Shown here: positions 12,283-61,868 of the stretch, one piece after another
Layout of the letters: every line of letters begins with the position of its first letter
Position numbering within the stretch: position 1 is the first letter of the stretch
NCBI RefSeq assembly: GCF_000613725.1
Contig: NZ_BAJN01000004.1
Span: 62,001 to 126,000 of the forward strand
DNA: 64,000 nucleotides
Source: Hoylesella pleuritidis JCM 14110
GTDB taxonomy: Bacteria; Bacteroidota; Bacteroidia; Bacteroidales; Bacteroidaceae
Reading direction: 5' to 3'
Program-made: the position numbers and the translations under genes
Notes under the pieces: generated by a model
Told to the model about the DNA's origin: nothing
Databases searched by the model: none
The model's input: only the letters and a program-made list of their open reading frames with translations

Positions 12283-12442
12283 AGAAAAATATGGGCAAAT
12301 GAAAGGGGAAACGGTGAAAAAGTAAAAAGGTGAAAAGGGGCTGCCAGAAGAATGAAAGAACATAAATCCCACGCGGAAACTGATTGTTTTTTATACAACC
12401 TATAAGTTTCTGTAAATCAATCAAATATATACTGTATCTCAA

Positions 12443-12552
12443 TTAGCCGTTCATTGTAGGGCAATGAACGGCTGAATGAATGCCGTTTAACCGTTAGTTG
12501 AATCTTGTTTAACCGTTAATGATCGTGCGATTAACCGTTAGTTGCATCACCA
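12443..12552 (+). repeat. Array of five 22-bp degenerate units (locus A)
   Basis: Units begin at 12443, 12465, 12487, 12509 and 12531, exactly 22 bp apart. Units 3-5 each begin TTAACCGTTA and end in a variable 12 bp. Unit 1 starts TTAGCCGTTC. Unit 2 carries the core in opposite orientation (GAACGGCTGAAT). The core TTAACCGTTAA is close to palindromic. The array lies upstream of the YeiH gene in a 447-bp gap and encodes no plausible protein. Similar arrays occur at 51439 and 61646. Confidence 0.8.
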
Positions 12553-12592
12553 ACTCTATATGGCTGAATACCAATTATATACAGGACTATAT

Positions 12593-12640
12593 CTCACCTC
12601 TCTCCAAAAGGAGAGGGGACGGGGATGAGACCCTCTCTGT
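12593..12640 (+). repeat. GGAGAGGGG-type hairpin element
   Basis: The core is CTCTCC-AAAA-GGAGAG followed by GGACGGGGATGAG. It matches the right arm of the 43-bp elements at 61570 and 61801 (GGAGAGGGGCCGGGGGTGAG). It has a REP-like layout: a GC-rich hairpin in otherwise AT-rich intergenic DNA. It lies 40 bp after the 22-bp array and ends 10 bp before the stop codon of the small minus-strand gene, so it could also act as a transcript end. Confidence 0.75.
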
Positions 12641-12650
12641 TTTGTTATGT

Positions 12651-12869
12651 TCAGATGGCCGCAAACCCACTGAAGCTGCCGTCTTTGAGGATATCGCGGA
12701 TGCTCAGTTCCTTGTATCCGTTGACTTTCAGCTGCTCTTTCAGATGGTCTTCAACAGCAGTTTCCTCTTCTGTTTTCTCGTAACCGAAAGTCTTGTATTT
12801 ACATTCTGCGAGCGCCCAACCGATGAATGAGACGGCCATAAGCGCGATAAGTCCATAGATTGCCATCAT
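12651..12869 (-). CDS. Small single-pass membrane protein, unknown function
   Basis: A 72-residue protein. Residues 1-20 form one hydrophobic segment (AIYGLIALMAVSFIGWALA), followed by a charged, Glu/Lys-rich soluble tail with a possible short amphipathic helix (EDHLKEQLKV). I do not recognise the family. Support for it being a real gene: a perfect -7 box (TATATTTG) at 12901-12908 with a short leader, and a protein-like composition. It could be an inner-membrane small protein with its tail in the cytoplasm. The sequence gives no functional partner. Confidence 0.6.
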   Translation of the reverse strand: MMAIYGLIALMAVSFIGWALAECKYKTFGYEKTEEETAVEDHLKEQLKVNGYKELSIRDILKDGSFSGFAAI

Positions 12870-17271: not shown

Positions 17272-17655
17272 ATGCCTACTATTCAACAATTGGTAAGAAA
17301 AGGCAGAACGGTTGTTGCTGATAAGAGCAAGTCACCGGCGTTGGACAACTGTCCACAGCGTCGTGGTGTTTGTGTTCGTGTTTATACAACGACCCCTAAA
17401 AAGCCTAATTCGGCAATGCGTAAGGTTGCCCGTGTCCGTCTGACGAATCAAAAAGAGGTGAACTCCTACATTCCGGGAGAGGGACACAACCTGCAAGAGC
17501 ATAGCATCGTTTTGGTGCGTGGCGGTCGTGTGAAAGATCTCCCTGGTGTGCGTTATCACATCGTTCGTGGTACACTTGATACGGCTGGTGTTGCCAATCG
17601 TACACAGCGCCGCTCGAAATATGGTGCTAAACGTCCTAAGGCAGCTAAGAAATAA
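17272..17655 (+). CDS. rpsL: 30S ribosomal protein S12
   Basis: S12 sits at the decoding centre. The 127-residue product has the usual [12 protein letters not shown] and [14 protein letters not shown] loops. Lys43 and the later loop Lys (the classical streptomycin-resistance positions) are unchanged, so no resistance allele is seen. It is the first gene of the str cluster. A 297-bp repeat-rich spacer separates it from rpsG, which is unusually long for this pair. Confidence 0.99.
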
Positions 17656-17663
17656 CACTGCCA

Positions 17664-17842
17664 TTAAGTTTTTAAGTTGATGAGTTTGTAAGTTGGTAAG
17701 ATTGCAGGTGATGTAAAACTTCGGAACTTTTACGCTGGTTTGTCAAGGCGGCGAAGACTCGGAAACTTAGAAACTTAAACTTAAAAACAATGTGAATGTG
17801 AGCTTTCGGATTAAGAAACTCACAGACTCACAATCTTAAATA
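17664..17842 (+). repeat. Degenerate AAGTT-type repeats in the rpsL-rpsG spacer
   Basis: The left part (TTTTTAAGTTGATGAGTTTG then TAAGTTGG) and the right part (GGAAACTTAGAAACTTAAAC, then AAACTCACAGACTCACAATC) are complementary in character. Each repeats roughly every 7 bases. The whole could fold into an imperfect hairpin within the mRNA. Similar material occurs at 20985, 33248 and 35374. No gene is seen here; the in-frame extension of rpsG into this spacer has no similarity to S7. Confidence 0.6.
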
Positions 17843-17952
17843 ACCCGTTTTGCTGGAGATTTGTTAATGACAGGTTGAGTAAATGCCCGAGAGAGAGCGT
17901 TGAAGAACAGTATAGACAGCCCCACGCAGAATTTATTTATTTTCAAAACAAA

Positions 17953-18429
17953 ATGAGAAAAGCAAAACCCAAGAAGCGTGTGATCCTGCCGGATCCCGTG
18001 TTCGGTGACCAGAAGGTCTCCAAATTCGTCAATCATCTGATGTATGATGGTAAGAAAAATACATCTTATGAGATTTTCTACAAAGCTCTTGATACAGTAA
18101 AAGAGAAGATGGCGAAAGAAGAAAAGTCACCTCTTGAAATCTGGAAACAGGCTCTCGACAACATTACTCCGCAAGTGGAAGTGAAGAGTCGGCGTATCGG
18201 TGGTGCGACATTTCAGGTTCCTACCGAGATACGTCCGGAACGTAAGGAAAGCGTTTCGATGAAAAACTTAATCGCTTTTGCCCGCAAACGTGGCGGAAAG
18301 AGTATGGCTGAGAAGCTCGCAGCAGAGATAATGGATGCCTATAACAACCAAGGCGGTGCCTTTAAACGTAAAGAGGATATGCACCGTATGGCTGAGGCTA
18401 ACCGTGCATTTGCTCATTTCAGATTCTAA
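17953..18429 (+). CDS. rpsG: 30S ribosomal protein S7
   Basis: S7 nucleates the 30S head. Using the ATG at 17953 gives 158 residues beginning [18 protein letters not shown], exactly the family N-terminus in this phylum. The upstream 26-codon extension is repeat spacer. Conserved [33 protein letters not shown] and the end [11 protein letters not shown] are present. fusA follows after 24 bp. Confidence 0.98.
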
Positions 18430-18453
18430 TTCAATAGGAAAGGTAAAAAGAAA

Positions 18454-20568
18454 ATGGCAAATCGCGATTTACATTTGACGCGTAACATAGGTATTATGGC
18501 GCATATCGATGCCGGTAAAACAACCACATCGGAGCGCATTTTGTTCTATACAGGTAAGACGCACAAGATCGGTGAAGTGCACGACGGTGCTGCAACGATG
18601 GACTGGATGGCACAGGAGCAGGAGCGTGGTATTACGATTACGTCTGCTGCAACGACTTGCAATTGGAACTATAAGGGTGCTTCTTATAAGATAAACTTGA
18701 TTGATACTCCGGGACACGTTGACTTCACGGCAGAGGTTGAGCGCTCATTGCGCGTACTCGACGGTGCCGTTGCGACGTATTCGGCAGCTGACGGCGTTCA
18801 GCCGCAGTCTGAAACGGTGTGGCGTCAGGCTGACAAGTATAATGTTCCGCGTATCGGTTACGTAAACAAGATGGACCGTTCGGGCGCTGATTTCTTTGAG
18901 ACTGTTCAGCAGATGAAAGACATCTTGGGTGCTAATCCGTGTCCCATTCAGATTCCTATCGGTGCAGAGGAAAACTTCAAAGGTCTTGTTGATCTGATTA
19001 AAATGAAGGCAATCCTGTGGCACGATGAGACAATGGGTGCTGAATATGATGTTGAAGATATTCCTGCTGATCTCGTTGACGAGGCCAATGAATGGCGGGA
19101 GAAGATGATTGAGAGTGCTGCCAACTTCGACGATGCACTGATGGAGAAGTATCTCGAAGGTCAGGAAATCGGCGAAGAAGAACTGATTGCAGCTATCCGT
19201 AAAGGTACAATCTCAATGGATTTGACCCCGATGTTATTGGGATCTTCCTATAAGAATAAGGGTGTTCAACCTCTGTTGGATTATGTTTGTGCATTCTTGC
19301 CTTCACCGCTTGATACCGAGAATATTGTAGGTGTGAATCCTAATACAGATGAAGAGGAAGATCGTAAACCGTCGGAAACGGAACCTACGGCAGCACTTGC
19401 ATTCAAAATCGCTACCGATCCGTTTATGGGTCGCTTGGTGTTCTTCCGTGTTTACTCGGGTAAAGTGACTGCCGGCTCTTATGTTTACAATCCGCGTTCG
19501 GGAAAAAAAGAGCGTATCAGTCGTCTGTTCCAGATGAACTCGAACAAGGAAATCCCGATGGAGAGTATCGATGCAGGTGATATTGGTGCCGGAGTAGGTT
19601 TCAAGGATATCCGTACCGGTGATACGCTTTGTGATGAGGGACATCCGATCGTATTGGAGTCGATGACTTTCCCAGACACAGTGATCTCCATTGCCGTTGA
19701 GCCGAAGAGCCAAGCCGATATTACGAAATTGGACAACGGGCTTGCCAAACTTGCCGAAGAGGATCCTACTTTCACCGTACGAACGGACGAGCAGAGTGGT
19801 CAGACGATTATTTCGGGTATGGGTGAGCTGCATCTCGACATTATCATCGATCGTCTGAAACGTGAATTCAAGGTTGAATGTAATCAAGGTAAACCGCAAG
19901 TTAACTATAAAGAGGCTATCACAAAGCCTGTCACACTGCGCGAAGTTTACAAGAAGCAGAGTGGTGGTCGCGGTAAGTTTGCTGATATTATTGTTACTGT
20001 CGGCCCGAAAGACGAGGATTATACCGAGGGAGATTTGCAGTTTATCAATGAAGTTAAGGGGGGTAATGTGCCTAAGGAGTTTATCCCCTCAGTACAGAAA
20101 GGATTCCAAGACTCATTGAAGAGCGGTGTACTTGGTGGCTTCCCGATGACTGGTATGAAGGTTACTTTGACTGATGGTAGTTTCCATCCAGTTGACTCGG
20201 ATCAGCTTTCATTTGAATTGGCTGCCCATAACGCATTCAGAAATGCTTGTCCTAAGGCCGGTCCGGTCTTGATGGAGCCTATTATGAAGGTTGAAGTCGT
20301 GACCCCCGAGGAGAATATGGGTGATGTGATCGGCGACTTGAACAAGCGTCGTGGCCAAGTAGAAGGTATGGATGAGGCCCGTAGCGGTGCTCGTATCGTC
20401 AAAGCAATGGTTCCGCTGGCAGAGATGTTTGGTTATGTAACTGCTCTGCGTACCATCACTTCGGGGCGTGCAACGAGCTCGATGGAGTATGATCACCACG
20501 CTCCGCTTTCAAGTTCGATTGCCAAGACTGTACTCGAAGAAGTGAAAGGCCGTACAGATTTAGTATAA
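18454..20568 (+). CDS. fusA: Elongation factor G
   Basis: EF-G catalyses ribosomal translocation. The 704 residues carry an intact GTPase: P-loop AHIDAGKT (16-23), G3 DTPGH (84-88), G4 NKMD (138-141), with the switch segment [11 protein letters not shown] between. Domains II-V follow, including the domain IV tip region and the C-terminal [13 protein letters not shown]. All catalytic motifs are present, so this is the canonical factor and not a GTPase-defective EF-G2 paralogue. A hairpin follows the stop. Confidence 0.98.
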
Positions 20569-20581
20569 AACAGTGAGATTC

Positions 20582-20627
20582 GAGGCACCGGATAGCGAAT
20601 GACTCTTATCCGGTGTACCTCTTTCTT
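20582..20627 (+). terminator. Stem-loop between fusA and rpsJ
   Basis: GAGG plus CACCGGATA (20582-20594) pair with TATCCGGTG (20607-20615) and CCTC (20618-20621), giving a stem of 13 bp with a 2-nt bulge, followed by TTTCTT. It is either a leaky terminator that sets the ratio of str to S10 genes or a structured leader of the S10 operon. No separate promoter box is visible before rpsJ, which favours partial read-through. Confidence 0.7.
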
Positions 20628-20663
20628 CTAATTTAAAATAACAATAAAACAACTTAATTGACT

Positions 20664-20969
20664 ATGAGTCAGAAAATTAGAATTAAGCTGAAATCTTACG
20701 ATCACAAGTTGGTTGATAAGTCAGCAGAGAAGATTGTGAAAGCAGTGAAGGCAACGGGTGCCATTGTAAGTGGTCCGATTCCTCTGCCGACGCATAAGCG
20801 TATTTATACTGTAAACCGTAGTACGTTCGTTAATAAGAAAGCGCGTGAGCAGTTCCAGCTCTCAGACTTCAAGCGTCTGATAGATATTTACAGCTCGACG
20901 GCAAAGACGGTTGATGCGCTGATGAAACTCGAATTGCCCAGCGGTGTTGAGGTAGAAATCAAAGTGTAG
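20664..20969 (+). CDS. rpsJ: 30S ribosomal protein S10
   Basis: S10 is a 30S head protein and, with NusB, part of antitermination complexes. The ATG at 20664 gives 101 residues ([20 protein letters not shown]), the family start; an in-frame TTG two codons upstream was not used. It contains [17 protein letters not shown] and ends SGVEVEIKV. It opens the S10 gene run. Confidence 0.98.
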
Positions 20970-20984
20970 AGAGAAGAATCAAAT

Positions 20985-21090
20985 TATCAGTTAATGAGTT
21001 GATGAGGTCGTGAGTTTTCTTTGACATTCAAAATCTAATGATTTCGTTTTTAGAAACTGACGAACTCAGAAATTTACAAACTAACATTTA
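20985..21090 (+). repeat. Degenerate AGTT/AACT spacer repeats between rpsJ and rplC
   Basis: Left arm AGTTAATGAGTTGATGAGGT, right arm AGAAACTGACGAACTCAGAA; the arms are imperfectly complementary (TGAGTT against AACTCA). The type matches that seen at 17664. There is no coding potential. Confidence 0.5.
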
Positions 21091-21103
21091 ATATTTAATT
21101 GAA

Positions 21104-21718
21104 ATGCCAGGATTAATTGGAAGAAAAATCGGAATGACATCCGTTTTCAGTGCCGACGGTAAAAATATACCGTGCACTGTTATCGAAGCTGGTCCTTGTG
21201 TTGTTACCCAAGTAAAGACTGTTGAAAAAGACGGTTATAAAGCGGTTCAATTAGGTTTCGCAGAGGCTAAGGAAAAAAGAACGACAAAGCCGATGCTGGG
21301 AATCTTTAAGAAAGCAGGTACGACACCGAAGAAGCACTTGGCCGAGTTCAAATTTGATGAAGAGTATAGCCTTGGTGATACGATCACGGTTGAATTATTC
21401 AACGATGCAGAGTTTGTCGATATTATCGGGACTTCTAAGGGTAAAGGTTTCCAAGGGGTAGTAAAACGCCACGGTTTTGGTGGTGTAGGTCAGAGTACAC
21501 ACGGTCAGGATGACCGCGCTCGCAAACCGGGATCTATCGGTGCTTGTTCTTATCCTGCCAAAGTGTTCAAGGGAATGCGTATGGCTGGACAGATGGGTGG
21601 TGACAGGGTGACGACTCAGAACCTTAAAGTGTTAAAAGTGATTCCGGAACAAAATGTCTTGATCGTCAAGGGTTCATTTGCCGGATATAATGGTTCAACT
21701 GTATTAATTGAGAAATAA
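21104..21718 (+). CDS. rplC: 50S ribosomal protein L3
   Basis: A primary assembly protein of the 50S subunit, 204 residues. Starts [18 protein letters not shown]. The extended central loop reaches the peptidyl-transferase centre ([34 protein letters not shown]). Its stop codon overlaps the start of rplD by one base, indicating coupled translation. Confidence 0.98.
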
Positions 21719-22347
21719 TGGAAGTTAGCGTTTTAAATATCAATGGTCAGGAGACCGGAAGAACGGTTACGTTAAACGAATCGATCTTCGGAATTGAGCC
21801 TAACGATCATGTTATCTATCTTGATGTGAAGCAGTATCTTGCTAACCAGCGTCAGGGTACGGCCAAGACAAAGGAGAGAAGCGAAGTAAGCGGTTCTACT
21901 CGAAAATTGGGACGCCAGAAAGGTGGCGGTGGTGCTCGTCGCGGAGATATCAATTCGCCGGTACTTGTTGGTGGTGGTCGTGTATTCGGTCCTAAACCTC
22001 GCGATTACGGTTTCAAGTTGAACAAGAAAGTGAAGAGTTTGGCTCGTCGTTCGGCTTTATCGTATAAGGCGCAAGAGAATGCTATCGTGGTTGTCGAAGA
22101 TTTTACGATGGATGTACCAAAGACGAAAGGTTTTGTAAATATTGCTAAAAATCTAAAAGTTGATGGTAAGAAAACACTTCTCATTTTGCCGGAAGTAAAT
22201 AAAAATGTATATTTGTCAGCTCGTAACTTACAACGTTCTGAGGTTATGACTGCATCTTCACTCAATACTTACAAAGTTTTGAATGCGGATGTTCTTGTTG
22301 TGACTGAAAATTCGTTGAAGACAATTGACGGAATCTTAGCAAAATAA
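21718..22347 (+). CDS. rplD: 50S ribosomal protein L4
   Basis: L4 lines the peptide exit tunnel and in E. coli also represses its own operon. The 209 residues include the basic loop [19 protein letters not shown] and [18 protein letters not shown]. The start ATG at 21718 overlaps the rplC stop. rplW begins 19 bp downstream. Confidence 0.98.
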
Positions 22348-22366
22348 TTAAGGAGACAGTAGAAAT

Positions 22367-22807
22367 ATGGCATTTATCATTAAACCATTGGTCACTGAGA
22401 AGATGACCAAGATTACAGACAAGTCTTCTGAAAGCAAAAAGCTGAAAGCTGCAAATGAGAAAGCTGCAAAGGTCAAAAATGCAGTAGAGGAAAAGGTCAG
22501 CTACGTTGTCAAAAAGAAAGGAAAGGCTGACGTAATGAAAGAAAAGACCGTTTATACTTATGTCAAACCCGCTTTGCCTAAGTATGGTTTTATAGTTAAG
22601 CCGGAGGCTAATAAGCTTGAAATCAAAGCAGAAATTGAAAGCCTGTATAATGTTACGGTTTTGGATGTGAATACGATGCGTTATGCAGGAAAGCGGTCAA
22701 GCCGTTATACGAAAGCTGGACTTGTAAAAGGTCAGAAGAGTGCTTTCAAGAAAGCTATCGTTACGTTGAAGGCTGGTGATCAAATAGATTTTTACAGCAA
22801 TATTTAA
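22367..22807 (+). CDS. rplW: 50S ribosomal protein L23 with a 50-residue Lys-rich insertion
   Basis: L23 surrounds the tunnel exit and docks trigger factor and SRP. The product is 146 residues, against about 96 in Bacteroides relatives as I know them. The first 19 residues (AFIIKPLVTEKMTKITDK) and everything from KYGFIVKPEANKLEI at residue 72 are canonical. Between them lies a Lys/Ala/Glu/Val-rich insert of about 50 residues, probably helical then extended. The frame is clean throughout, so this is a real insertion. rplB starts 7 bp after the stop. The effect on chaperone docking is unknown. Confidence 0.96.
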   Translation: MAFIIKPLVTEKMTKITDKSSESKKLKAANEKAAKVKNAVEEKVSYVVKKKGKADVMKEKTVYTYVKPALPKYGFIVKPEANKLEIKAEIESLYNVTVLDVNTMRYAGKRSSRYTKAGLVKGQKSAFKKAIVTLKAGDQIDFYSNI

Positions 22808-22814
22808 ATAGAAA

Positions 22815-23637
22815 ATGGCAGTACGTAAATTGAAACCGGTTACACCGGGACAAAGACACAAAGTTATTGGTACGTTCGAGGATATTACTGCATCCGTACC
22901 AGAGAAGTCTCTCGTTTTCGGAAAACATTCTACCGGCGGTCGAAACAATACCGGTAAGATGACAGTTCGCTATATAGGTGGAGGTCATAAGAGAAAGTTT
23001 CGTCTGATCGACTTTAAACGAGAGAAAGATGGTGTCCCAGCAGTGGTAAAGACAATTGAATACGACCCGAATCGTTCGGCTCGTATTGCTTTGTTGTATT
23101 ATGCTGATGGTGAAAAACGCTACATTATTGCTCCTAATGGACTGCAAGTAGGCACGAAATTGATGTCGGGGGCAGAGGCTGCACCGGAAATTGGTAATGC
23201 TCTTCCCTTGGCAAACATTCCTGTGGGTACGGTGATTCATAATATTGAATTACGTCCGGGACAAGGTGCTCTACTCGTTCGTTCGGCCGGTAACTTTGCT
23301 CAGTTGACTTCCCGTGAGTAGTTATTGTGTGATTAAGCTTCCTTCCGGTGAGACTCGTAAGATTCTCTCTGCTTGTAAGGCTACAGTTGGTAGTGTGGGT
23401 AATTCTGACCATGCATTGGAACAGTCCGGTAAAGCCGGTCGGTCGCGTTGGTTGGGACGTCGTCCTCATAACCGAGGTGTTGTTATGAACCCTGTTGATC
23501 ACCCGATGGGTGGTGGTGAAGGCCGTCAGAGCGGTGGTCATCCACGTTCACGCAAGGGCTTGTATGCTAAGGGGCTCAAAACCCGCGCACCGAAAAAACT
23601 TTCAAGCAAATATATTATTGAAAGGGCAAGTAAATAA
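22815..23637 (+). CDS. rplB: 50S ribosomal protein L2, frame interrupted by a 2-nt deletion
   Basis: L2 is essential for subunit joining and peptidyl transfer. The first frame runs from [16 protein letters not shown] to NFAQLTSRE and then hits a stop near 23319. The second continues [16 protein letters not shown] to the end. Two missing bases (gag-ggt-agt read as gag-tag-t) restore 274 residues, the expected length. The functional block [19 protein letters not shown] is intact. The protein is indispensable, so a base-calling error in a run of G is the likely cause. Confidence 0.95.
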
Positions 23638-23655
23638 CATTAAGAAGAGAAAATT

Positions 23656-23922
23656 ATGAGTCGTTCATTAAAAAAAGGTCCATATATCAACGTTTCACTC
23701 GAGAAGAAGATTCTCGCGATGAATGAGAGCGGCAAGAAGAGTGTCGTTAAGACTTGGGCCAGAGCATCAATGATTTCCCCGGATTTTGTGGGACATACCG
23801 TTGCTGTTCATAACGGAAACAAATTTATCCCTGTTTACATTACGGAGAATATGGTCGGTCACAAATTGGGGGAATTCTCCCTGACGCGTAGATTCGGCGG
23901 ACACTCCGGTAATAAGAAATAA
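23656..23922 (+). CDS. rpsS: 30S ribosomal protein S19
   Basis: S19 is in the 30S head and contacts S13 and the A-site tRNA region. 88 residues, from [18 protein letters not shown] to [14 protein letters not shown], the usual length. It lies 18 bp after rplB and 32 bp before rplV. Confidence 0.98.
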
Positions 23923-23954
23923 TCGGGAGTAACCATTTAAATGTAAAGATAATA

Positions 23955-24359
23955 ATGGGAGCAAGAAAACATATATCAGCTGAAAAGAGAAAAGAGGCAT
24001 TGAAGAGTTTGTACTTTGCGAAACTCAACGGTGTTCCTTCTTCTCCACGCAAGATGCGCTACGTTGTAGATATGATTCGTGGCTTGGAAGTAAATCGTGC
24101 TTTGGGCGTTTTGCGATTCTCTAAGAAGCAAGCTGCCGCAGATGTTGAGAAACTGTTGCGTTCGGCAATTGCTAACTGGGAGCAGAAAAATGATCGAAAG
24201 GCTGAAGACGGAGAACTTTATATAAGTAAAGTTTTTGTTGACGAGGGTGTTACGATGAAACGTATGAGACCAGCACCACAGGGTCGTGGTTATAGAATTC
24301 GTAAGCGTAGTAACCACGTTACATTATTTGTAGATGCCAAAACTAATGACGAAAAATAA
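23955..24359 (+). CDS. rplV: 50S ribosomal protein L22
   Basis: L22's long hairpin lines the exit tunnel where macrolide resistance can arise. 134 residues; contains [15 protein letters not shown] and the tunnel loop [20 protein letters not shown] without any deletion or duplication. It lies 8 bp before rpsC. Confidence 0.98.
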
Positions 24360-24367
24360 TAAATAGA

Positions 24368-25096
24368 ATGGGACAGAAAGTTAATCCAATAAGCAACCGT
24401 CTTGGTATTATCCGTGGTTGGGATTCAAATTGGTTTGGTGGCAAGAGCTTCGGAGAGAATCTCGTTGAGGATCGGAAAATCCGCAAGTACTTAAACGAGC
24501 GTTTGGCAAAGGCCAGCGTTGCGCGCATTGTCATTGAACGTACTTTGAAACTCGTTACCATTACTATTTGTACAGCTCGCCCGGGAATCGTCATCGGTAA
24601 AGGTGGACAGGACGTTGACCGATTGAAAGAGGAACTGAAACGGCTTTACAAAAAAGATATTCAAATCAATATCTTTGAGATTAAGAAACCGGAACTTGAT
24701 GCAACTATCGTTGCGAATAACATCGCTCGCCAAGTCGAGGGTAAGATTGCTTATCGTCGCGCTATTAAGATGGCTATTCAGAATACGATGCGTGCAGGTG
24801 CGGAAGGCATCAAAGTACAGATTTCTGGGCGCCTGAACGGTGCGGAAATGGCGCGTAAGGAAATGCTGAAAGAGGGACGTACACCCTTGCATACATTCCG
24901 TTCCGATATTGATTATTGTCGGGCAGAAGCTCTAACAAAGGTTGGATTGTTGGGTATTAAGGTGTGGATTTGTCGTGGTGAAGTATATGGACAGCGTGAT
25001 CTCGCACCGAATTTTACTCAGGACAAGCAGAATGCCGGACGTCCCGGTTCTCGTTCTGGCCGTGGCGGTAATCGCAGGAGAAACAATAACCGTTAA
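24368..25096 (+). CDS. rpsC: 30S ribosomal protein S3
   Basis: S3 lines the mRNA entry channel. 242 residues: N-terminal [17 protein letters not shown], the KH domain with [15 protein letters not shown] around residue 77, and the C-terminal S3 domain ending in a basic, Asn/Arg-rich tail (GNRRRNNNR). It is followed 15 bp later by rplP. Confidence 0.98.
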
Positions 25097-25111
25097 AAGA
25101 AAAAGTAAGTA

Positions 25112-25540
25112 ATGTTACAGCCAAAAAGAGTTAAATATAGAAGACCTCAAGATGGGCGTGGCAATAAAGGCAATGCTCATAGAGGCACACAGCTGGCTTT
25201 CGGTACGTTTGGCATCAAAACACTTGAAGCAAAATGGATAGACAGCCGTCAGATTGAGGCTGCCCGTGTTGCTGTTAATCGTTATATGCAGCGTGAAGGA
25301 CAGGTTTGGATCCGCATATTCCCAGATAAGCCGATTACGCGTAAGCCCGCCGATGTCCGAATGGGTAAAGGTAAAGGAGATCCCGCAGGTTGGGTTGCCC
25401 CAGTAACTCCGGGTCGTATCCTCTTTGAAGTAGAAGGAGTAAGTTTCGATATAGCCAAAGAGGCGCTTCGTCTTGCGGCACAGAAACTACCGGTAAAGAC
25501 TAAGTTCGTTGTTAGACGTGATTTCGACAAAAACGCTTAA
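25112..25540 (+). CDS. rplP: 50S ribosomal protein L16
   Basis: L16 helps position tRNA in the A site of the large subunit. 142 residues with [20 protein letters not shown] at the start and the signature [20 protein letters not shown]. It lies 6 bp before rpmC. Confidence 0.98.
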
Positions 25541-25546
25541 ACTATT

Positions 25547-25741
25547 ATGAAGAGTAAAGAAGTAAAAGAACTCGAGACCAAAGATTTGGCCGAGAAGTTA
25601 GAGAGTGCAGTGGAGGCTTTGCATAAGATGAAGCTTAATCACGCAACGACTCCTCTTGAAAATCCATCACAGATTAAAGCGACCCGTCGTGATATTGCAC
25701 GTATGAAAACGGAACTTCGTCAGAGAGAACTTAACAAATAA
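25547..25741 (+). CDS. rpmC: 50S ribosomal protein L29
   Basis: A small two-helix protein near the tunnel exit beside L23. 64 residues, KSKEVKELETKDLAEKLESA to MKTELRQRELNK. It lies in the standard place between rplP and rpsQ, with 12 bp to rpsQ. In this species its neighbour L23 carries a large insertion, but L29 itself is ordinary. Confidence 0.97.
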   Translation: MKSKEVKELETKDLAEKLESAVEALHKMKLNHATTPLENPSQIKATRRDIARMKTELRQRELNK

Positions 25742-25753
25742 CAATGGTTCAAG

Positions 25754-26011
25754 ATGGAAACGAGAAATTTAAGAAAAACAAGACAGGGGGTAGTCATCAG
25801 TAACAAAATGGATAAAACCATTGTTATCGCTGCTAAGTTCAAAGAGATGCACCCTATATATGGTAAGTTTGTACAAAAGACAAAGAAATACCACGTACAC
25901 GATGAGAAGAATGAGGCGAATATTGGTGATACCGTACTCATTATGGAGACTCGTCCTTTGAGTAAAACAAAGCGATGGAGATTAGTTCAAATAATTGAAA
26001 AAGCTAAGTAA
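25754..26011 (+). CDS. rpsQ: 30S ribosomal protein S17
   Basis: A primary 16S rRNA binder. 85 residues; [20 protein letters not shown] and the C-terminal [18 protein letters not shown] are typical. Only 2 bp separate its stop from rplN, suggesting translational coupling. Confidence 0.97.
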
Positions 26012-26013
26012 TT

Positions 26014-26379
26014 ATGATACAAGCAGAATCAAGACTTACAGTATGTGATAACAGCGGTGCGCGCGAGGCACTTTGTATCCGCGTTTTGGGAGGTACCCGC
26101 CGCCGTTATGCAAGTGTTGGAGACGTGATTGTCGTTGCAGTCAAGAATGTCATTCCATCAAGTGATTTGAAGAAAGGTGCAGTATCAAAGGCTTTGATTG
26201 TTCGTACAAAGAAAGAAATCCGTCGTGCGGATGGTTCTTATATCCGCTTCGATGATAATGCTTGTGTGCTTTTGAACAATGCAGGTGAGCTTCGTGGCAG
26301 TCGTATTTTTGGTCCTGTGGCTCGTGAACTCCGTGCTGTGAATATGAAAGTTGTTTCTTTGGCGCCTGAGGTTCTTTAA
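26014..26379 (+). CDS. rplN: 50S ribosomal protein L14
   Basis: It forms bridge B8 with the 30S subunit and is a binding site for silencing factor RsfS. 121 residues beginning [20 protein letters not shown], with the [13 protein letters not shown] signature near the end. All conserved blocks are present. Confidence 0.98.
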
Positions 26380-26398
26380 TTATTAAAAAGGAAAAGTA

Positions 26399-26725
26399 AT
26401 GAGCAAGTTACATATAAAGAAAGGTGATACCGTAATGGTGCTTACCGGTGACAGTCGGGATCGCGGGAAAACCGGTAAGGTTCTTAAAGTCTTAGTTGAT
26501 GAGAATCGGGCAATCGTTGAGGGGTGTAGGATTATCTCTAAGCACACGAAGCCTTCTGCCAAGAACCCTCAGGGAGGTATTGTCAAGCAGGAAGCTCCGA
26601 TTCATATCTCTAATTTGAGTCTGATCGATCCGAAAAGCGGTAAACCTACGCGTGTGGGTATTAAGCGAACGGAAGATGGAAATAAGATTCGTATCGCTAA
26701 AAAGTCAGGGGAGGAAATCAAGTAA
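26399..26725 (+). CDS. rplX: 50S ribosomal protein L24
   Basis: An assembly initiator near the tunnel exit. 108 residues with an N-terminal KOW motif ([23 protein letters not shown]) and [20 protein letters not shown]. The last base of its stop codon is the first base of rplE (26725). Confidence 0.97.
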
Positions 26726-27279
26726 TGAATACAGCACAGTTGAAGAAAGAATATGTAGAGCGTATTGCTCCGGCATTGAGAGAACAGTTCAATTACTCTT
26801 CTGTAATGCAAATTCCTACACTGAAAAAGATCGTTATTAATCAGGGATTGGGTGATGCAACGCAAGATAAGAAGATTATTGAGGTTGCAGTTAATGAAAT
26901 TTCTGCTATAACGGGTCAGAAAGCGGTTGCAACTTATTCGAAGAAGGATATTGCAAATTTTAAGTTGCGTAAGAAGATGCCGATTGGTGTAATGGTAACT
27001 TTGCGGCGTGAGCGTATGTATGAGTTTCTTGAGAAACTCGTTCGTGTAGCACTTCCGCGTATTCGTGACTTTAAGGGGATTGAAAGTAAATTTGACGGTC
27101 GTGGTAATTACACGTTGGGTATCACGGAACAGATTATCTTCCCGGAGATTAATCTCGATTCAATCGATCGTATTCAAGGTATGAATATAACCTTTGTTAC
27201 ATCTGCACAGACAGATGAAGAGGGATATGCTTTGCTGAAAGCATTCGGTCTTCCATTTAAGAACGCTAAAAACGATTAA
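26725..27279 (+). CDS. rplE: 50S ribosomal protein L5
   Basis: It binds 5S rRNA and contacts the P-site tRNA. 184 residues with [40 protein letters not shown] and the C-terminal [20 protein letters not shown]. The start overlaps the rplX stop. rpsN begins 5 bp after its stop. Confidence 0.98.
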
Positions 27280-27284
27280 GCAAT

Positions 27285-27587
27285 ATGGCAAAAGAATCAA
27301 TGAAAGCCCGCGAGGTGAAACGTGCTAAATTGGTAGCCCGTTATGCGGAGAAACGTGCGGCTCTAAAAAAGATTATCGCAACTTCCGGCGACATTACAGA
27401 AGCATATGAGGCAGCCCGTAAATTACAAGCTATTCCTAAGAATGCGAATCCGATTCGTTTACATAATCGTTGTAAGATTACAGGTCGTCCCAAAGGATAT
27501 ATTCGTCAGTTCGGCCTTTCCAGAATTCAGTTTCGTGAGATGGCTTCAGCAGGTTTGATTCCGGGTGTGAAGAAAGCGAGCTGGTAA
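27285..27587 (+). CDS. rpsN: 30S ribosomal protein S14 (zinc-free form)
   Basis: 100 residues, beginning [19 protein letters not shown] and ending [11 protein letters not shown]. Around the usual zinc site only [15 protein letters not shown] is present. The paired CxxC motifs of the zinc form are absent, so this is the zinc-independent type, about 100 residues long as expected. The 158-bp gap to rpsH holds no gene that I can see. Confidence 0.97.
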
Positions 27588-27745
27588 CAATTTGGATGAT
27601 GTAGCTATATATAATAAGGTGATGATTAGATATCAATGGATGTTGTATATATTATTAAGCCTTTTTAAAAGAAATTACCGGCTTTCCATAGACAATTATT
27701 TTAATATTGTCGGGGTGGTCCCGATTAATTAAACATTTATATTTT

Positions 27746-28141
27746 ATGACAGATCCAATAGCAGATTATCTGACAAGACTCAGAAACGCGATTATGGCAC
27801 ATCATCGCGTTGTCGAAGTACCTGCGTCTAACTTAAAGAAGGAGATTACTAAAATCCTCTTTGAGAAAGGGTACATCTTGAACTATAAGTTCGTTGAAGA
27901 TGGTCCCCAAGGTACAATCAAAGTTGCTTTAAAGTATGATCCGACGACGAAAGTTAATGCGATCAAGAATTTAAAGCGTGTATCTACCCCCGGTCTTCGT
28001 AAGTATACCGGTTATAAAGATATGCCGAGAGTAATTAATGGATTAGGTATTGCAATCTTATCTACATCCAAAGGTGTAATGACAAACAAGGAAGCTGCTG
28101 ACTTGAAAATCGGCGGTGAGGTCCTTTGCTATGTTTATTAA
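27746..28141 (+). CDS. rpsH: 30S ribosomal protein S8
   Basis: S8 binds helix 21 of 16S rRNA and represses the spc operon in E. coli. The start at 27746 (MTDPIADYLTRLRNAIMA) gives the canonical 131 residues; the 13-codon in-frame extension upstream has no family support. The end TNKEAADLKIGGEVLCYVY is typical. rplF begins 14 bp after its stop. Confidence 0.98.
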   Translation: MTDPIADYLTRLRNAIMAHHRVVEVPASNLKKEITKILFEKGYILNYKFVEDGPQGTIKVALKYDPTTKVNAIKNLKRVSTPGLRKYTGYKDMPRVINGLGIAILSTSKGVMTNKEAADLKIGGEVLCYVY

Positions 28142-28155
28142 TTGGAGGATTGAAT

Positions 28156-28722
28156 ATGTCAAGAATAGGAAAATTGCCAATTAGTATTCCTGCAGGAGTT
28201 ACAGTCGCTCAGAAAGACGATGTTGTTACGGTGAAAGGTCCGAAGGGAGAACTTTCCCAAAACATTGATCCGTCTATCAAAATGAATATTGAGGGAAGTA
28301 AGATTACTTTCGAAATCGATGAAAACAGTCTTGTAAGTACAAAACAGAAGCAGGCTTTCCACGGCTTATACCGCTCTTTGGTCAACAATATGATTGTTGG
28401 TGTAAGTGAAGGTTACAAAAAGACGATGGAACTTGTCGGTGTCGGTTATCGTGTATCGAATCAAGGAAATTTAGTCGAGTTTTCACTCGGTTACACGCAC
28501 CCGATATTCATTCAGCTTCCCAATGAGGTGAAAGTTGAGACGAAATCTGAAAGAAACCAGAATCCGATCATAACCATTGAGTCTTGTGACAAGCAGTTAT
28601 TGGGACTCATCTGTGCTAAAATTCGTTCTTTCCGTATGCCGGAGCCTTATAAAGGAAAGGGAATCCTATTCAAAGGTGAGGTTATTCGCAGAAAGTCTGG
28701 TAAGACAGCTGCAGCTAAGTAA
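28156..28722 (+). CDS. rplF: 50S ribosomal protein L6
   Basis: It lies near the sarcin-ricin loop. 188 residues from ATG 28156 (MSRIGKLPISIPAGV); the longer reading from 28126 overlaps rpsH and adds nothing conserved. It has two repeated L6 folds and the C-terminal signature PEPYKGKGILFKGEVIRRK. Confidence 0.98.
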   Translation: MSRIGKLPISIPAGVTVAQKDDVVTVKGPKGELSQNIDPSIKMNIEGSKITFEIDENSLVSTKQKQAFHGLYRSLVNNMIVGVSEGYKKTMELVGVGYRVSNQGNLVEFSLGYTHPIFIQLPNEVKVETKSERNQNPIITIESCDKQLLGLICAKIRSFRMPEPYKGKGILFKGEVIRRKSGKTAAAK

Positions 28723-28753
28723 TGCTAAGTAACTTCAAATTTATTTAGAAATT

Positions 28754-29098
28754 ATGACAACAAAGAAAGTAGAAAGACGAATCAAAATAAAGTTCAGAAT
28801 TCGTAAAAGCGTAAATGGTACTGCCGAACGTCCTCGTTTGAGTGTTTTCCGCAGTAATAAGCAAATTTATGCACAGGTAATTAATGATGAGACAGGGACG
28901 ACACTTGCGTCTGCGTCTTCTCTCGGGTTGGAGGCTATGCCGAAGATTCAGCAGGCAGAAAAAGTCGGCGAATTGGTTGCAAAAAATGCTCAGGTAGCAG
29001 GTGTTACAGCAGTTGTCTTCGATCGTAATGGTTATCTTTATCACGGTCGTGTGAAAGGCTTGGCTGATGCTGCACGTAAGGGAGGTCTTAAATTTTAA
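28754..29098 (+). CDS. rplR: 50S ribosomal protein L18
   Basis: A 5S rRNA-binding protein of the central protuberance. 114 residues with [20 protein letters not shown] and the end [17 protein letters not shown]. It is followed by rpsE after 6 bp. Confidence 0.98.
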
Positions 29099-29104
29099 AC
29101 GATT

Positions 29105-29617
29105 ATGGCAATGAATAAAGTAAGAATAAATAGTGACTCAGAATTGAAAGATCGACTGGTTGCTATCAACCGTGTAACAAAGGTTACCAAAGGAGGTCGT
29201 ACATTTACATTCGCTGCTATTGTCGTTGTCGGTGACGGTAATGGTGTTGTTGGCTATGGTTTGGGAAAAGCAGGTGAAGTTACGGCTGCTATCGCCAAAG
29301 GTGTTGAGGCTGCTAAGAAGAATTTGGTCAAGGTCCCAGTTCTTAAAGGTACCATTCCTCACGAAATTGAAGCAACGTTTAGCGGTGCTCACGTGTTGTT
29401 GAAGCCTGCTGCTGCCGGTACTGGATTGAAAGCCGGTGGTGCTATGCGAGCTGTTTTGGAAACTGTTGGCATAAATGATGTGATTGCGAAATCTAAGGGA
29501 TCATCCAATCCTCATAACTTGGTAAAAGCTACGATTGAGGCTTTGGATCAGTTACGAGACGCCTATACGATTGCAGGTGTTCGTGGTATCAGTATGGAAA
29601 AAGTATTCAACGGTTAA
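29105..29617 (+). CDS. rpsE: 30S ribosomal protein S5
   Basis: It contributes to translational fidelity and mRNA unwinding at the entry channel. 170 residues: [19 protein letters not shown] in the N-terminal dsRBD-like domain, [19 protein letters not shown] and [18 protein letters not shown] in the C-terminal half. The ATG at 29105 is used; a second in-frame ATG lies two codons later. Confidence 0.98.
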
Positions 29618-29631
29618 TGGGAAAAGATACA

Positions 29632-29808
29632 ATGGCAACAATTAAGATTAAACAGATTAAGAGTAGAATTGGTGCTCCGATTGATCAGAAGCGTACGCTC
29701 TTGGCTTTGGGACTTCGTAAGATTTCTCAGGTTGTTGAGGTTGAAGATTCTCCCAGCATCCGCGGTATGGTACGAAAGGTTCACCATTTGGTAAATGTAA
29801 TTGAATAA
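29632..29808 (+). CDS. rpmD: 50S ribosomal protein L30
   Basis: A short ferredoxin-like-fold protein, 58 residues from the ATG at 29632 (MATIKIKQIKSRIGAP), the family start. A 5-codon in-frame extension from 29617 would overlap the rpsE stop and is less likely. The body contains KRTLLALGLRKISQVVE and ends MVRKVHHLVNVIE. Confidence 0.96.
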   Translation: MATIKIKQIKSRIGAPIDQKRTLLALGLRKISQVVEVEDSPSIRGMVRKVHHLVNVIE

Positions 29809-29830
29809 TTAATCTTTTAAATAGGCAATG

Positions 29831-30277
29831 ATGAAATTAAATAATTTGAAACCGGCTACAGGCTCAACACATTCACGCCGTCGTGTTGGTCGTGGTACAG
29901 GCTCTGGACTCGGTGGAACTTCTACCCGTGGACACAAAGGAGCCAAGGCTCGGTCCGGTTATAAGAGAAAAATAGGCTTCGAAGGTGGTCAGATGCCTCT
30001 CCAACGTCGTGTTCCGAAAGCTGGGTTTAAGAATATCAACCATAGAGAATATTTCGCCGTAAACTTGTCTACCCTTCAAAATTTGGCTGAGAAGAAGAAT
30101 CTTACGAAGATCGGAATTGCTGAATTGAAGGAGGCCGGACTTACCAATGGCAAAGAACTCGTTAAGATTTTGGGCAATGGTGAGTTGAAAGCAAAGCTTG
30201 AGGTTGAGGCAAATGCATTCTCTAAGACTGCCGAAGAAGCAATTAAGGCAGTAGGTGGTAACACAACAATAATCTAA
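29831..30277 (+). CDS. rplO: 50S ribosomal protein L15
   Basis: A late-assembly 50S protein, 148 residues. The Gly/Arg-rich N-terminal extension (RRVGRGTGSGLGGTSTRGHK) reaches into the rRNA core. Two adjacent ATG codons (29828 and 29831) could serve as start; they differ by one Met. secY starts 3 bp after its stop, so translation is probably coupled. Confidence 0.97.
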   Translation: MKLNNLKPATGSTHSRRRVGRGTGSGLGGTSTRGHKGAKARSGYKRKIGFEGGQMPLQRRVPKAGFKNINHREYFAVNLSTLQNLAEKKNLTKIGIAELKEAGLTNGKELVKILGNGELKAKLEVEANAFSKTAEEAIKAVGGNTTII

Positions 30278-30280
30278 GTA

Positions 30281-31618
30281 ATGAGAAAATTTATCGAGAC
30301 ACTGAAGAACTGTTGGAAGATAGAGGACCTGCGTCAGCGGCTCCTCATCACTCTTCTGTTCACGGCAATATACCGATTTGGTTCATTTGTCGTGCTTCCC
30401 GGAATCAACCCGAGTATGTTGGAGAAATTGCAGTCGCAAACCTCCGGCGGTCTTATGTCGCTTCTGGATATGTTCTCCGGTGGTGCATTTTCTAATGCAT
30501 CTATCTTTGCATTAGGAATTATGCCTTACATCTCGGCTTCCATCGTTATGCAACTCCTTGCAATGGCTGTTCCTTACTTTCAAAAGATGCAGCGTGAAGG
30601 AGAGAGCGGACGCAAGAAGATTAATTGGTATACACGTATTCTGACAGTATTCATTTTACTGTTTCAGGCTCCGTCTTACCTCTTGAATCTTAAAATGCAG
30701 GCTGGTCAGGCTTTGGCCTCTGGCATTTCTTGGTCGGTTTTTATTGTTCCTGCAACGATTATTCTTGCGGCAGGCAGTATGTTCATCTTGTGGTTAGGTG
30801 AACGCATAACGGATAAAGGAATCGGAAATGGAATCTCTTTAATCATTATGATTGGTATCATCGCTCGACTTCCCCAAGCATTCGTGCAAGAAATGGGATC
30901 GAGATTCACAGCCATTTCGGGTGGTGGACTCGTGATGTTTATCGTTGAGATTCTCATTCTTTATGCCGTTGTATGTGCATCGATTCTTTTGGTACAAGGA
31001 ACGCGTAAGGTGCCTGTACAGTATGCTAAACGTTTGGTTGGAAACAAGCAATATGGCGGTGCCCGTCAGTATATTCCGCTGAAGCTCTTCGCAGCCAATG
31101 TGATGCCGATCATCTTTGCTCAGGCATTGATGTTCATTCCGTTAGCAGTTGTTCGCTATCAGTCGGAGAATGCCAGTTGGGTTGTGCAGTCTTTGATGGA
31201 TAACAGAAGTTTGCTTTACAATATCGTATATGTAACTCTGGTTATTGCTTTTACATATTTCTATACGGCTATCACATTGAATCCAACACAGATGGCGGAA
31301 GATATGAAACGCAACAACGGTTTTATTCCCGGTGTCAAACCAGGAAAGGACACTGCCGAGTATATCGATACTGTGATGTCTCGTATAACTTTCCCAGGCT
31401 CTTTGTTCATCGCATTCATTGCAATAATGCCAGCTTTGGCAGGACTGTTGAACGTGCAGCAGGCTTTCTCTCAATTCTTTGGAGGTACATCTCTGTTGAT
31501 TCTTGTCGGCGTAGTGATTGATACCCTCCAGCAGATTGAGAGTCATTTGCTGATGCGTCATTACGACGGATTGCTTAATTCCGGTCATACGCGCGGAGGA
31601 GCGGTTTCTGCTTATTAA
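30281..31618 (+). CDS. secY: Protein translocase subunit SecY
   Basis: The pore-forming subunit of the Sec translocon in the inner membrane. 445 residues with about ten membrane segments. Family landmarks are GSFVVLPGINP near the first segment, the plug region SLLDMFSGGAFSNASIFALG, LIIMIGIIARLP, and the conserved cytoplasmic loop FIPGVKPGKDTAEYID. It sits between rplO and map as in most bacteria. Confidence 0.98.
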   Translation: MRKFIETLKNCWKIEDLRQRLLITLLFTAIYRFGSFVVLPGINPSMLEKLQSQTSGGLMSLLDMFSGGAFSNASIFALGIMPYISASIVMQLLAMAVPYFQKMQREGESGRKKINWYTRILTVFILLFQAPSYLLNLKMQAGQALASGISWSVFIVPATIILAAGSMFILWLGERITDKGIGNGISLIIMIGIIARLPQAFVQEMGSRFTAISGGGLVMFIVEILILYAVVCASILLVQGTRKVPVQYAKRLVGNKQYGGARQYIPLKLFAANVMPIIFAQALMFIPLAVVRYQSENASWVVQSLMDNRSLLYNIVYVTLVIAFTYFYTAITLNPTQMAEDMKRNNGFIPGVKPGKDTAEYIDTVMSRITFPGSLFIAFIAIMPALAGLLNVQQAFSQFFGGTSLLILVGVVIDTLQQIESHLLMRHYDGLLNSGHTRGGAVSAY

Positions 31619-31631
31619 GCTAATTTGTCGG

Positions 31632-32432: not shown

Positions 32433-32435
32433 ATT

Positions 32436-32654
32436 ATGGCAAAGCAATCCGCGATAGAGCAGGACGGAACCATCGTCGAATCACTTTCAAATGCGATGTT
32501 TCGCGTAGAACTTGAAAATGGAGTTCAGATCATAGCGCATATCTCAGGCAAGATGAGAATGCACTATATTAAGATCTTGCCCGGAGACAAGGTGAAAGTA
32601 GAGATGAGTCCGTATGATTTGACTAAGGGAAGAATCGTTTTCCGATATAAATAA
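32436..32654 (+). CDS. infA: Translation initiation factor IF-1
   Basis: It binds the A site of the 30S subunit during initiation. 72 residues, a single S1/OB fold: [20 protein letters not shown], then [20 protein letters not shown], ending [11 protein letters not shown]. It is at its standard place before rpmJ, 12 bp away. Confidence 0.98.
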
Positions 32655-32666
32655 TCAAGTAAAGAT

Positions 32667-32783
32667 ATGAAGACAAGAGCATCATTAAAAAAACGAACCC
32701 CCGACTGCAAGATTGTTCGTCGCAAAGGTCGGTTGTTCGTGATTAACAAGAAGAACCCTAAGTATAAATTGCGCCAGGGCTAA
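32667..32783 (+). CDS. rpmJ: 50S ribosomal protein L36 (zinc-ligand-poor form)
   Basis: A 38-residue protein, [19 protein letters not shown] to [12 protein letters not shown]. The zinc-type protein has Cys11, Cys14, Cys27 and His33. Here only Cys14 remains (Thr11, Asn27, Tyr33), so it should not bind zinc, as is usual in this phylum. The ATG at 32667 follows infA by 12 bp. Confidence 0.96.
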
Positions 32784-32793
32784 GTGATGGAAT

Positions 32794-32812: not shown

Positions 32813-32866
32813 GCACCCATCGGACAAAAGGAATTTAATCGATTTAATTAATTTATTTTATTAACA

Positions 32867-34368: not shown

Positions 34369-34380
34369 ATCATTGAATTA

Positions 34381-51343: not shown

Positions 51344-51438
51344 ATATTTTCAAGCCATACCTGCAATACTCATTTCTTAGGAACCAAGATGTGAACCATA
51401 ATACATTGAGAATCAATTAGTTTGTAATAGTATTCCGA

Positions 51439-51548
51439 AAGGCCATTAATTGCATTGTGGAAGGCTGTTAAATGCACGGCGATTAACGGCTTTTCGCAAT
51501 GCAATTAACAGCTAATTACAATGCGTTTAATCGTTAATTAGAATATGC
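51439..51548 (+). repeat. Array of five 22-bp degenerate units (locus C)
   Basis: Units start at 51439, 51461, 51483, 51505 and 51527, 22 bp apart. The last three read TTAACGGCTTTTCGCAATGC, TTAACAGCTAATTACAATGC and TTAATCGTTAATTAGAATAT plus two bases. The first two carry the core in the opposite orientation (GGCCATTAATTGCATTG, GGCTGTTAAATGCAC). It lies in the 446-bp gap between the divergent PepSY and ogt genes. The remainder of that gap is AT-rich with promoter boxes only. Confidence 0.8.
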
Positions 51549-51727
51549 TTGTAATATGTTGATTATGAAAGTATTATGTCTTGTGCTGACAAAGGATTTC
51601 ATAGAAGTGGATGTAAAGTTGTTATAGCTTTGAATCGGACCATCTTTATTTTCTCGATTTTATTTTATTAATAATTATTCGAGGGTTTATTATCAATCGA
51701 ATAGTTGTTTATATCGTCGTAAATCAT

Positions 51728-61547: not shown

Positions 61548-61569
61548 AAAGGAAAGGGCTTACTACAAC

Positions 61570-61612
61570 GTAGCCCCGGCCTCACCCCCGGCCCCTCTCC
61601 GAAAGGAGAGGG
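61570..61612 (+). repeat. GGAGAGGGG-type element, left copy of an inverted pair
   Basis: 43 bp starting GTAGCCCCGGCCTCACCCCC and ending in CTCTCCGAAAGGAGAGGG. Its own end forms a hairpin (CCTCTCC-GAAA-GGAGAGG). The reverse complement of 61801-61843 matches it with one mismatch. It lies 23 bp after the rseP stop. Confidence 0.85.
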
Positions 61613-61645
61613 AGGGATTTGCATTTGTATTGAGGTGAATATCAA

Positions 61646-61755
61646 GTGCTTAATAATGGCATCCTGTTTAATGGTAAAGTGCCGTGCAATTAACGATTAA
61701 ACACCCTCTGTTTAACCGTTAATTACAACGCGTTTAACCATCAATCGCAATATAT
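61646..61755 (+). repeat. Array of 22-bp degenerate units (locus D)
   Basis: Units start at 61668, 61690, 61712 and 61734, 22 bp apart: TTAATGGTAAAGTGCCGTGC, TTAACGATTAAACACCCTCT, TTAACCGTTAATTACAACGC, TTAACCATCAATCGCAATAT (each plus two bases). A poorer unit at 61646 contains TTAATAATGGCAT. The array sits in the middle of the inverted pair of GGAGAGGGG elements. No gene is seen in this 321-bp gap. Confidence 0.8.
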
Positions 61756-61800
61756 GTTGTATTTGCTTGATAACCAAACAGATACAGCTACAAATTCCTT

Positions 61801-61843
61801 CCCTCTCCTTTCGGAGAGGGGCCGGGGGTGAGGCTGGGGCTAC
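61801..61843 (-). repeat. GGAGAGGGG-type element, right copy of an inverted pair
   Basis: CCCTCTCCTTTCGGAGAGGG followed by GCCGGGGGTGAGGCTGGGG and CTAC, the inverse of 61570-61612 with one difference in 43 bp. It lies 26 bp from the stop of the convergent gene that follows. Confidence 0.85.
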
Positions 61844-61868
61844 AGTGTGGCAAGGCTGAATCTCATTC

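Follow-up and report, generated by a model that had tools for sequence, protein, structure and literature searches.

Three places in the window, i.e. the whole stretch of 64,000 nucleotides analysed here from Hoylesella pleuritidis JCM 14110, carry members of a dispersed family of elements in which palindromic cores recur at a rigid 22-bp phase, and the palindromes that close these elements stand on the same 11-bp dyad grid as the units themselves. What could hold so strict a spacing in copy after copy while the letters between the cores drift? The reading that we favour, with about as much belief as doubt, is that of a PINSR-like, lineage-specific, noncoding dispersed element of ~187 bp, which would have been spread in trans and would owe its rigid phase to the cooperative binding of a protein.

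The repeat unit and the elements of the window

The repeat unit reads TTAACSGTTAA and then WYRCANTGYRW, with its two dyads 11 bp apart. In element A (Table 1), the five units stand at the strict 22-bp spacing that the sequence-only reading had ascribed to them, and the second core is indeed inverted without loss of phase. The same reading had every core facing one side of the helix, which does not hold: at 10.5 bp per turn, 22 bp amounts by arithmetic to ~2.1 turns, so that successive cores do not lie exactly on the same side and drift by ~34 degrees per core. It had likewise taken the 12 bp between the cores to be variable, and linkers do vary while cores recur in every array found (the arrays themselves having been found by the core), but the linker carries the second, weaker dyad of the unit. 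Because terminal palindromes, absent from that earlier description, flank the array, element A extends beyond it on both sides. The two further arrays with the same core that had been announced for the window are both real, B at its expected position of 51439, whereas C begins at 61668 and not at 61646.

Table 1. Coordinates of the phased elements and their parts, counted from the first letter of the window
Feature	Positions	Strand	Remarks
Element A, whole (five-core array between two terminal palindromes)	12399..12585		length 187 bp; 154 bp between palindrome centres
Element A, left terminal palindrome	12399..12431		centre 12415; departs from the consensus at 8 of its 25 fixed letters
Array A, core 1	12443..12453	+	TTAGCCGTTCA
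Array A, core 2	12465..12475	-	TGAACGGCTGA; inverted
Array A, core 3	12487..12497	+	TTAACCGTTAG
Array A, core 4	12509..12519	+	TTAACCGTTAA
Array A, core 5	12531..12541	+	TTAACCGTTAG
Element A, right terminal palindrome	12553..12585		centre 12569; 7 mismatches
Element B	51395..51580		five core positions, 51439, 51461, 51483, 51505 and 51527; first two weak
Element C	61624..61788		four cores, 61668, 61690, 61712 and 61734
Surround of element C	61559..61854		limits approximate; two inverted ~70-bp copies of the GGAGAGGGGCCGGGGGTGAGGC repeat

The terminal palindrome has the degenerate consensus TTTGTATnTnnTTGAnnnTCAAnnAnATACAAA, which was derived from array flanks, and its centre lies 33 bp from that of the outermost core in elements A, B and C, with 32 bp at the right of B. 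The palindromes of B, centred at 51411 and 51564 (153 bp apart), have 10 mismatches each and are therefore doubtful, and those of C, centred at 61640 and 61772 (132 bp apart), have 6 and 4. At up to one mismatch, TTAACCGTTAA occurs 10 times in the window against a shuffle mean of 1.39, a count that 0 of 100 shuffles reach. No ORF of at least 80 aa lies within the three elements; a mechanically called ORF at 12519-12830 (+) begins in core 4 of array A and runs beyond the element. An Rfam scan of the window gave no match at the elements, a tRNA being the sole known RNA family found. Elsewhere in the window, positions 36150-36233 hold another phased array, with the palindromic core GTAACGGRGTTAC, a period of 23 bp and ~3.7 copies, and the long series of short ORFs at 17272-36000, mostly on the same strand, looks like a prophage or a similar element.

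The terminal palindromes were followed beyond the window. A first survey of array flanks placed one at exactly 33 bp in 48 of 118 flanks of this genome and in 18 of 150 in H. enoeca. When 782 kb of this genome was searched at up to six mismatches, 50 of 53 palindromes had an array no more than 130 bp away, with exact phase in 47 of these 50; shuffled DNA yielded none. With up to nine mismatches allowed, phased palindromes close both sides of 25 of the 73 arrays and one side of 21, and neither end is recognisable in 27; in H. enoeca, 107 of 155 arrays have no recognisable terminal palindrome. The distance between the two centres is 154 bp in 15 of the 25 both-ended arrays and in 2 of 143 control windows. 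A hairpin is ruled out as a general constraint, since arrays of this genome show no general excess of hairpin potential, two loci (L001 and L004) being striking single cases, and predicted curvature is no greater than in shuffles. Few arrays are centred in locus-specific inverted repeats (score of at least 20 in 3/73 here and 4/155 in H. enoeca; mismatched controls, 2/219 and 0/465, respectively), and this arrangement was set aside; the surround of element C is local and outside the element, because its score of 49.7 is the only one among the 73 arrays to exceed 25.

Abundance and distribution

The excess of 22-bp spacing that the sequence-only reading had suggested looking for is strong genome-wide: with up to three mismatches, core pairs at 22 bp number 197 forward and 207 reverse in the 2.56-Mb genome, i.e. 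404, against 0 and 0 in the control, many places being counted on both strands because the core is nearly its own complement. With the spacing left free in 430 kb of this genome, multiples of 22 account for 97 of 99 pairs within 130 bp at up to one mismatch, and for 211 of 237 core pairs at up to two; the corresponding figures for 399 kb of H. enoeca are 35/35 and 112/118. An array finder, i.e. a weight matrix whose training set was the arrays that the core alone had first picked out, recovered 73 arrays in 782 kb of own DNA and 1 in 782 kb of the same DNA shuffled, and 156 in 1,069 kb of H. enoeca, which bears out the earlier notion of a dispersed family. By extrapolation (73 arrays in 782 of 2,560 kb), the genome would hold ~240 copies and that of H. 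enoeca ~400. Among arrays found by the core alone, five cores are present in 26 of 59 here, and four cores in 50 of 75 in H. enoeca.

Intergenic gaps of at least 150 bp hold 51 of these 59 arrays and called ORFs contain 7. Three of the eight arrays outside such gaps, 7/8 of which lie within called frames, are C46:19146, C49:221909 and C41:52294; the one at C49:221909 keeps its register in both species, and the region of C46:19146 aligns to H. enoeca without an inner gap despite differing arrays. The genes flanking the 51 intergenic arrays are in tandem at 25, convergent at 16 and divergent at 10, and the lack of a consistent orientation relative to genes rules out a terminator or promoter role.

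Across 398 genomes of the genus, the own one included, a search at up to one mismatch gave 140 matches per strand in the own genome, 61 in H. enoeca (G227), 11 in the rumen Prevotella RUG136 (G325), one in a further genome (G100) and none in the rest; G227 and G325 are assigned to these two because their contig places coincide with those of the genomes behind the H. enoeca and RUG136 records. H. enoeca and the rumen Prevotella are thus the only two of the 397 other sampled congeners with more than one match, and 394 have none. The uncultured RUG136 shares the core, but its linkers are GGTCRSYGACC-like palindromes, and Hallella seregens has one array of this RUG136 type. In a first survey of 40 relatives, at up to three mismatches, two congeners had one match each; a genome from another family of the order (G033) had 10 core-pair matches at 22 bp (control 1) on its contigs C11, C36, C43, C225 and C235, nearly all with one common linker. 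A scan of one genome per species, covering 84,980 species, listed 31 stretches (own records possibly left out). By eye, those outside Hoylesella, Hallella and Prevotella look like chance or other repeats; the exceptions are three Bacteroides and bacterium 1xD42-87, which have short 22-bp arrays. In two Bacteroides genomes (L048:381 and L052:6254), closely similar sequence precedes 22-bp arrays of CTAACSGTTAG that have other linkers.

The arrays might also have been decayed copies of a known transposon end, an outcome that the sequence-only reading had set against itself. No such end emerged when plasmids were searched with two copies and phages with one: the plasmid search (one window element and one other copy) returned two hits only, at E = 1, the phage search (with the copy from outside the window) nothing convincing, and a phage or plasmid origin was rejected on these grounds. 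Viral contigs gave a single, unrelated stretch. The near confinement of terminal palindromes to array neighbourhoods likewise speaks against a known transposon end.

Divergence between copies

Ordinary tandem duplication, which had been doubted from the start, can be rejected as a local process, since in this genome two units from one array resemble each other no more than two from separate arrays. In H. enoeca, shared deviations are slightly more frequent among neighbouring cores in inverted orientation than between arrays (0.186 vs 0.149). The copies derive from one another, since their flanks align across loci: alignments extend past the array over up to 335 bp and, among those listed, the best pairs are 69-80% identical and the best whole-element alignments, flanks included, lie within contig C41. 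One orthologous array pair differs by exactly one 22-bp unit. Over 11 orthologous pairs, differing positions number 60/594 in cores, 60/470 in linkers and 226/1,538 in flanks, and the cores do not change significantly more slowly than the linkers (p 0.17), a result that counts against present selection on binding. Five of the pairs contribute little, being in very similar blocks, and some pairs probably fall within reading frames. The array pairs looked at showed neither a clean empty site nor a target duplication, and no parent element could be made out in 782 kb of this genome.

Arrays at changes of gene order

Blocks that align with H. enoeca are ~72 to 99% identical and differ in order. 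Arrays stand at 13 of 17 gene-order junctions here (successive chains, gap of at most 3 kb) and, as control, in 12 of 57 intergenic regions that are colinear and no shorter than 100 bp (Fisher p 5e-5); taking every own intergenic region from 300 bp upwards, the share is 52/147. Three of the four junctions free of arrays border a weak chain (66-72% identity). A post hoc restriction to gaps of 300-700 bp left 7 of 8 junctions with an array, vs 52/147 (p 0.005). Of the 14 H. enoeca block ends at those seven junctions, 11 have an array no more than 400 bp away, to be compared with 85/205 of its intergenic regions from 300 bp upwards (p 0.007); adding the eighth junction gives 11/16. Arrays may be a cause of the breaks at which they are located. 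On the 12 junction sides inspected by eye, the array-bearing DNA is unrelated and homology gives out at gene ends or close to them, so that no crossover within an array could be followed there.

In colinear stretches, some of the jumps in identity lie at arrays, e.g. those from 96.7 to 84.2% (C44:63864-64086) and from 82.1 to 94.7% (C49:214675-215022). Own contigs C41, C44, C46 and C49 are block mosaics of ~72-99% identity, as if large segments had recently been exchanged between species. A 3.4-kb segment of H. enoeca (C109:49009-52460) that has degenerate arrays at both ends, of which the left was judged by eye, corresponds to a single array at own C46:27283-27749.

The same period with other letters

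Is the 22-bp period tied to these letters? Slices of 11-80 kb from 21 other genomes (20 congeners and H. seregens) were taken from contig 1 or from contigs of known number; the 1-kb slice of one further genome was dropped. Noncoding 7-mers repeated at an offset of 22 number at least six in 12 of the 21 genomes and rank top in 6. The same threshold is reached in 12/21 at offset 44, in 9/21 at offset 66 and in 13/21 at offset 21, offsets 14 and 42 also being frequent. Among 336 noncoding regions, 34 tandem arrays were found, 20 of them with a period of 22 or 44; the next period, 21, has 3, and 200 kb of E. coli K-12 (72 regions) contained no such arrays. By eye, the 22-bp arrays of the other Prevotella look unrelated in sequence, and some have nearly identical units. 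Of two that were checked further, TTCACCATGGTGAA-N8 occupies 7 loci in G003 and none in three other genomes searched, and ATCCARACGTGGAKAACARATT 14 loci in G095 and none in four others searched; a third, GAGTTGSSCAACTC-N8, forms a single array that adjoins the RAYT gene of H. enoeca. This last (L190; C112:71956-72057) has five 22-bp units, one with its core inverted. Arrays of period 41 (~four helix turns) and of several sequences occur in H. enoeca, at C112:83066 and elsewhere, and in H. seregens (L222:15186), and near the RAYT gene of RUG136 (L188) arrays of period 22 (CGTGACACAGACGTGGCAGGAT) and 33 bp lie close together.

The other Prevotella arrays thus have the geometry in common and not the letters, which hints at a shared mechanism. 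It is tentatively conceivable that Prevotella lineages each possess their own dispersed intergenic array family, with unrelated letters and the same 22-bp period, and that a fast-evolving recogniser of fixed 22-bp footprint, be it a transposase, a recombinase or a packing protein, repeatedly renews its sites, which in turn shape gene order. PINSR and BrickBuilt were described separately, each for a single species or group. If both of them and the present element result from one process that fixes the spacing and not the sequence, that process could be searched for by its period throughout the group's genomes, and there would be a concrete reason for the scrambled gene order between close Prevotella species.

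How might the phase have arisen?

In the favoured reading, the element consists of a palindrome, 22-bp units (mostly with five cores in this genome) and a second palindrome on one 11-bp dyad grid. Its copies most likely spread in the common ancestor of H. pleuritidis and H. enoeca, where a transposase or recombinase would have acted in trans, and a putative protein most likely bound neighbouring units cooperatively, either during mobilisation or in DNA packing; the working would resemble that of PINSR of P. intermedia and, in part, that of BrickBuilt of P. gingivalis. The phased protein-binding array proposed by the sequence-only reading survives in this form: a protein of fixed footprint best explains rigid spacing together with drifting linkers, a proposition on which our judgement is evenly divided, but the protein is putative, and cores no slower than linkers and arrays without extra curvature weigh against it.

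Might the phase instead be a relic of slippage? A minisatellite inside a dead MITE-like element, in which slippage favoured 22-bp units that were then multiplied and decayed without function, is the main rival, and a rather unlikely one. The 22-bp arrays of unrelated sequence in other Prevotella, some with near-identical units, speak for it, as do orthologous cores that change no more slowly than linkers and the one array altered by exactly one unit. Slippage alone is insufficient, however, because units within arrays are no more alike than units between arrays, and inverted units that hold phase, terminal palindromes on the same grid and cores that recur in all arrays found by them, with varying linkers, also tell against this reading. 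Chance, or local tandem duplication at a single place, has nothing in its favour beyond the repeat itself and can practically be dismissed given 404 core pairs vs 0 in the control and 73 arrays vs 1 in shuffled DNA.

It seems improbable that a site-specific recombinase swaps or inverts gene blocks between arrays, somewhat as at integron attC sites. Changes of gene order and some identity jumps do fall at arrays, and the 3.4-kb segment of H. enoeca, flanked by degenerate arrays where this genome has one, is what such exchange might leave behind; yet on the 12 sides inspected homology stops at gene ends or close to them and not inside arrays, any dispersed repeat can serve homologous recombination, and an expansion of tyrosine recombinases can be discarded (8 here vs 2 to 33 in 11 other genomes of the group). 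Little credence goes to a chromosome-organising or regulatory site that a DNA-binding protein of the host needs and keeps. Rigid phase, two dyads per unit, the preference for intergenic gaps, with 7 arrays inside called ORFs, and the register conserved at C49:221909 would suit a host site, but not its absence from nearly all other sampled congeners, the inconsistent place and orientation relative to genes, or cores that are not slower than linkers.

Comparison with known systems

REP/BIME sequences, which go with RAYT transposases, are palindromic, intergenic and present in many copies with species-specific letters, and the element described here shares all these traits; REP sequences are not known to be defined by a phased array of several cores. 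This genome has one RAYT gene, the nearest array lies ~440 bp from its Y1 domain, and the repeats around it differ by eye from the array family; RAYT was rejected as the agent because its single gene is surrounded by other repeats. Iteron or parC-type arrays are cooperatively bound and occur in few copies at an origin or centromere; here, too, the modules stand in phase, about ten of them at 11 bp each or five when counted as 22-bp units, but the arrays are dispersed and not confined to such places. Integron attC sites delimit single-gene cassettes and go with an integron integrase, whereas 59 arrays against 621 called genes are far fewer. MITEs have terminal inverted repeats that match an insertion sequence, and a target-site duplication; the element here ends in palindromes, and neither a parent element nor an empty site or a duplication was recognised.

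BrickBuilt of P. gingivalis is described, in the parts of the paper available, as a minisatellite within a MITE, with 23-nt direct repeats, a non-repetitive leader and tail, IS5-like terminal repeats and 19 copies in one strain, and P. gingivalis is cited there as holding 22-, 23- and 41-nt repeats (PMC4596501). As far as this description goes, both systems place tandem units of about two helix turns inside a dispersed noncoding element, and the 22- and 41-nt classes of P. gingivalis have counterparts in the 22- and 41-bp classes of H. enoeca. The BrickBuilt consensus AGAYCATARTATCCTCTCRTRTG is a 23-nt direct repeat; the unit here is 22 bp long with another sequence, it occurs in either orientation, and each end is a palindrome set on the unit grid.

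The closest likeness is with PINSR of P. intermedia, a dispersed intergenic repeat of 188 bp that, in the available parts of its description, has 177-184 copies within one Prevotella group, is probably noncoding and shows some inversions or translocations between copies (PMC4755523). Judged by description and not by sequence comparison, the element here is similar: element A is 187 bp long, the copies are intergenic and estimated at more than 100 (~240 by extrapolation), and they are confined to few species, i.e. the own one and H. enoeca, plus the rumen genome with other linkers and one array in H. seregens. Gene-order junctions here fall at copies, and some inversions or translocations lie between PINSR copies. 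As far as the PINSR description extends, that repeat is without terminal inverted repeats, whereas phased terminal palindromes occur here (on both sides in 25/73), and a 22-bp phase is described only for the present element; searches of the literature, as far as its accessible parts reach, found no report of 22-bp phased arrays in Prevotella. What is new relative to PINSR is the inner 22-bp grid, the placement of terminal palindromes on that grid and a period that is kept with other letters elsewhere.
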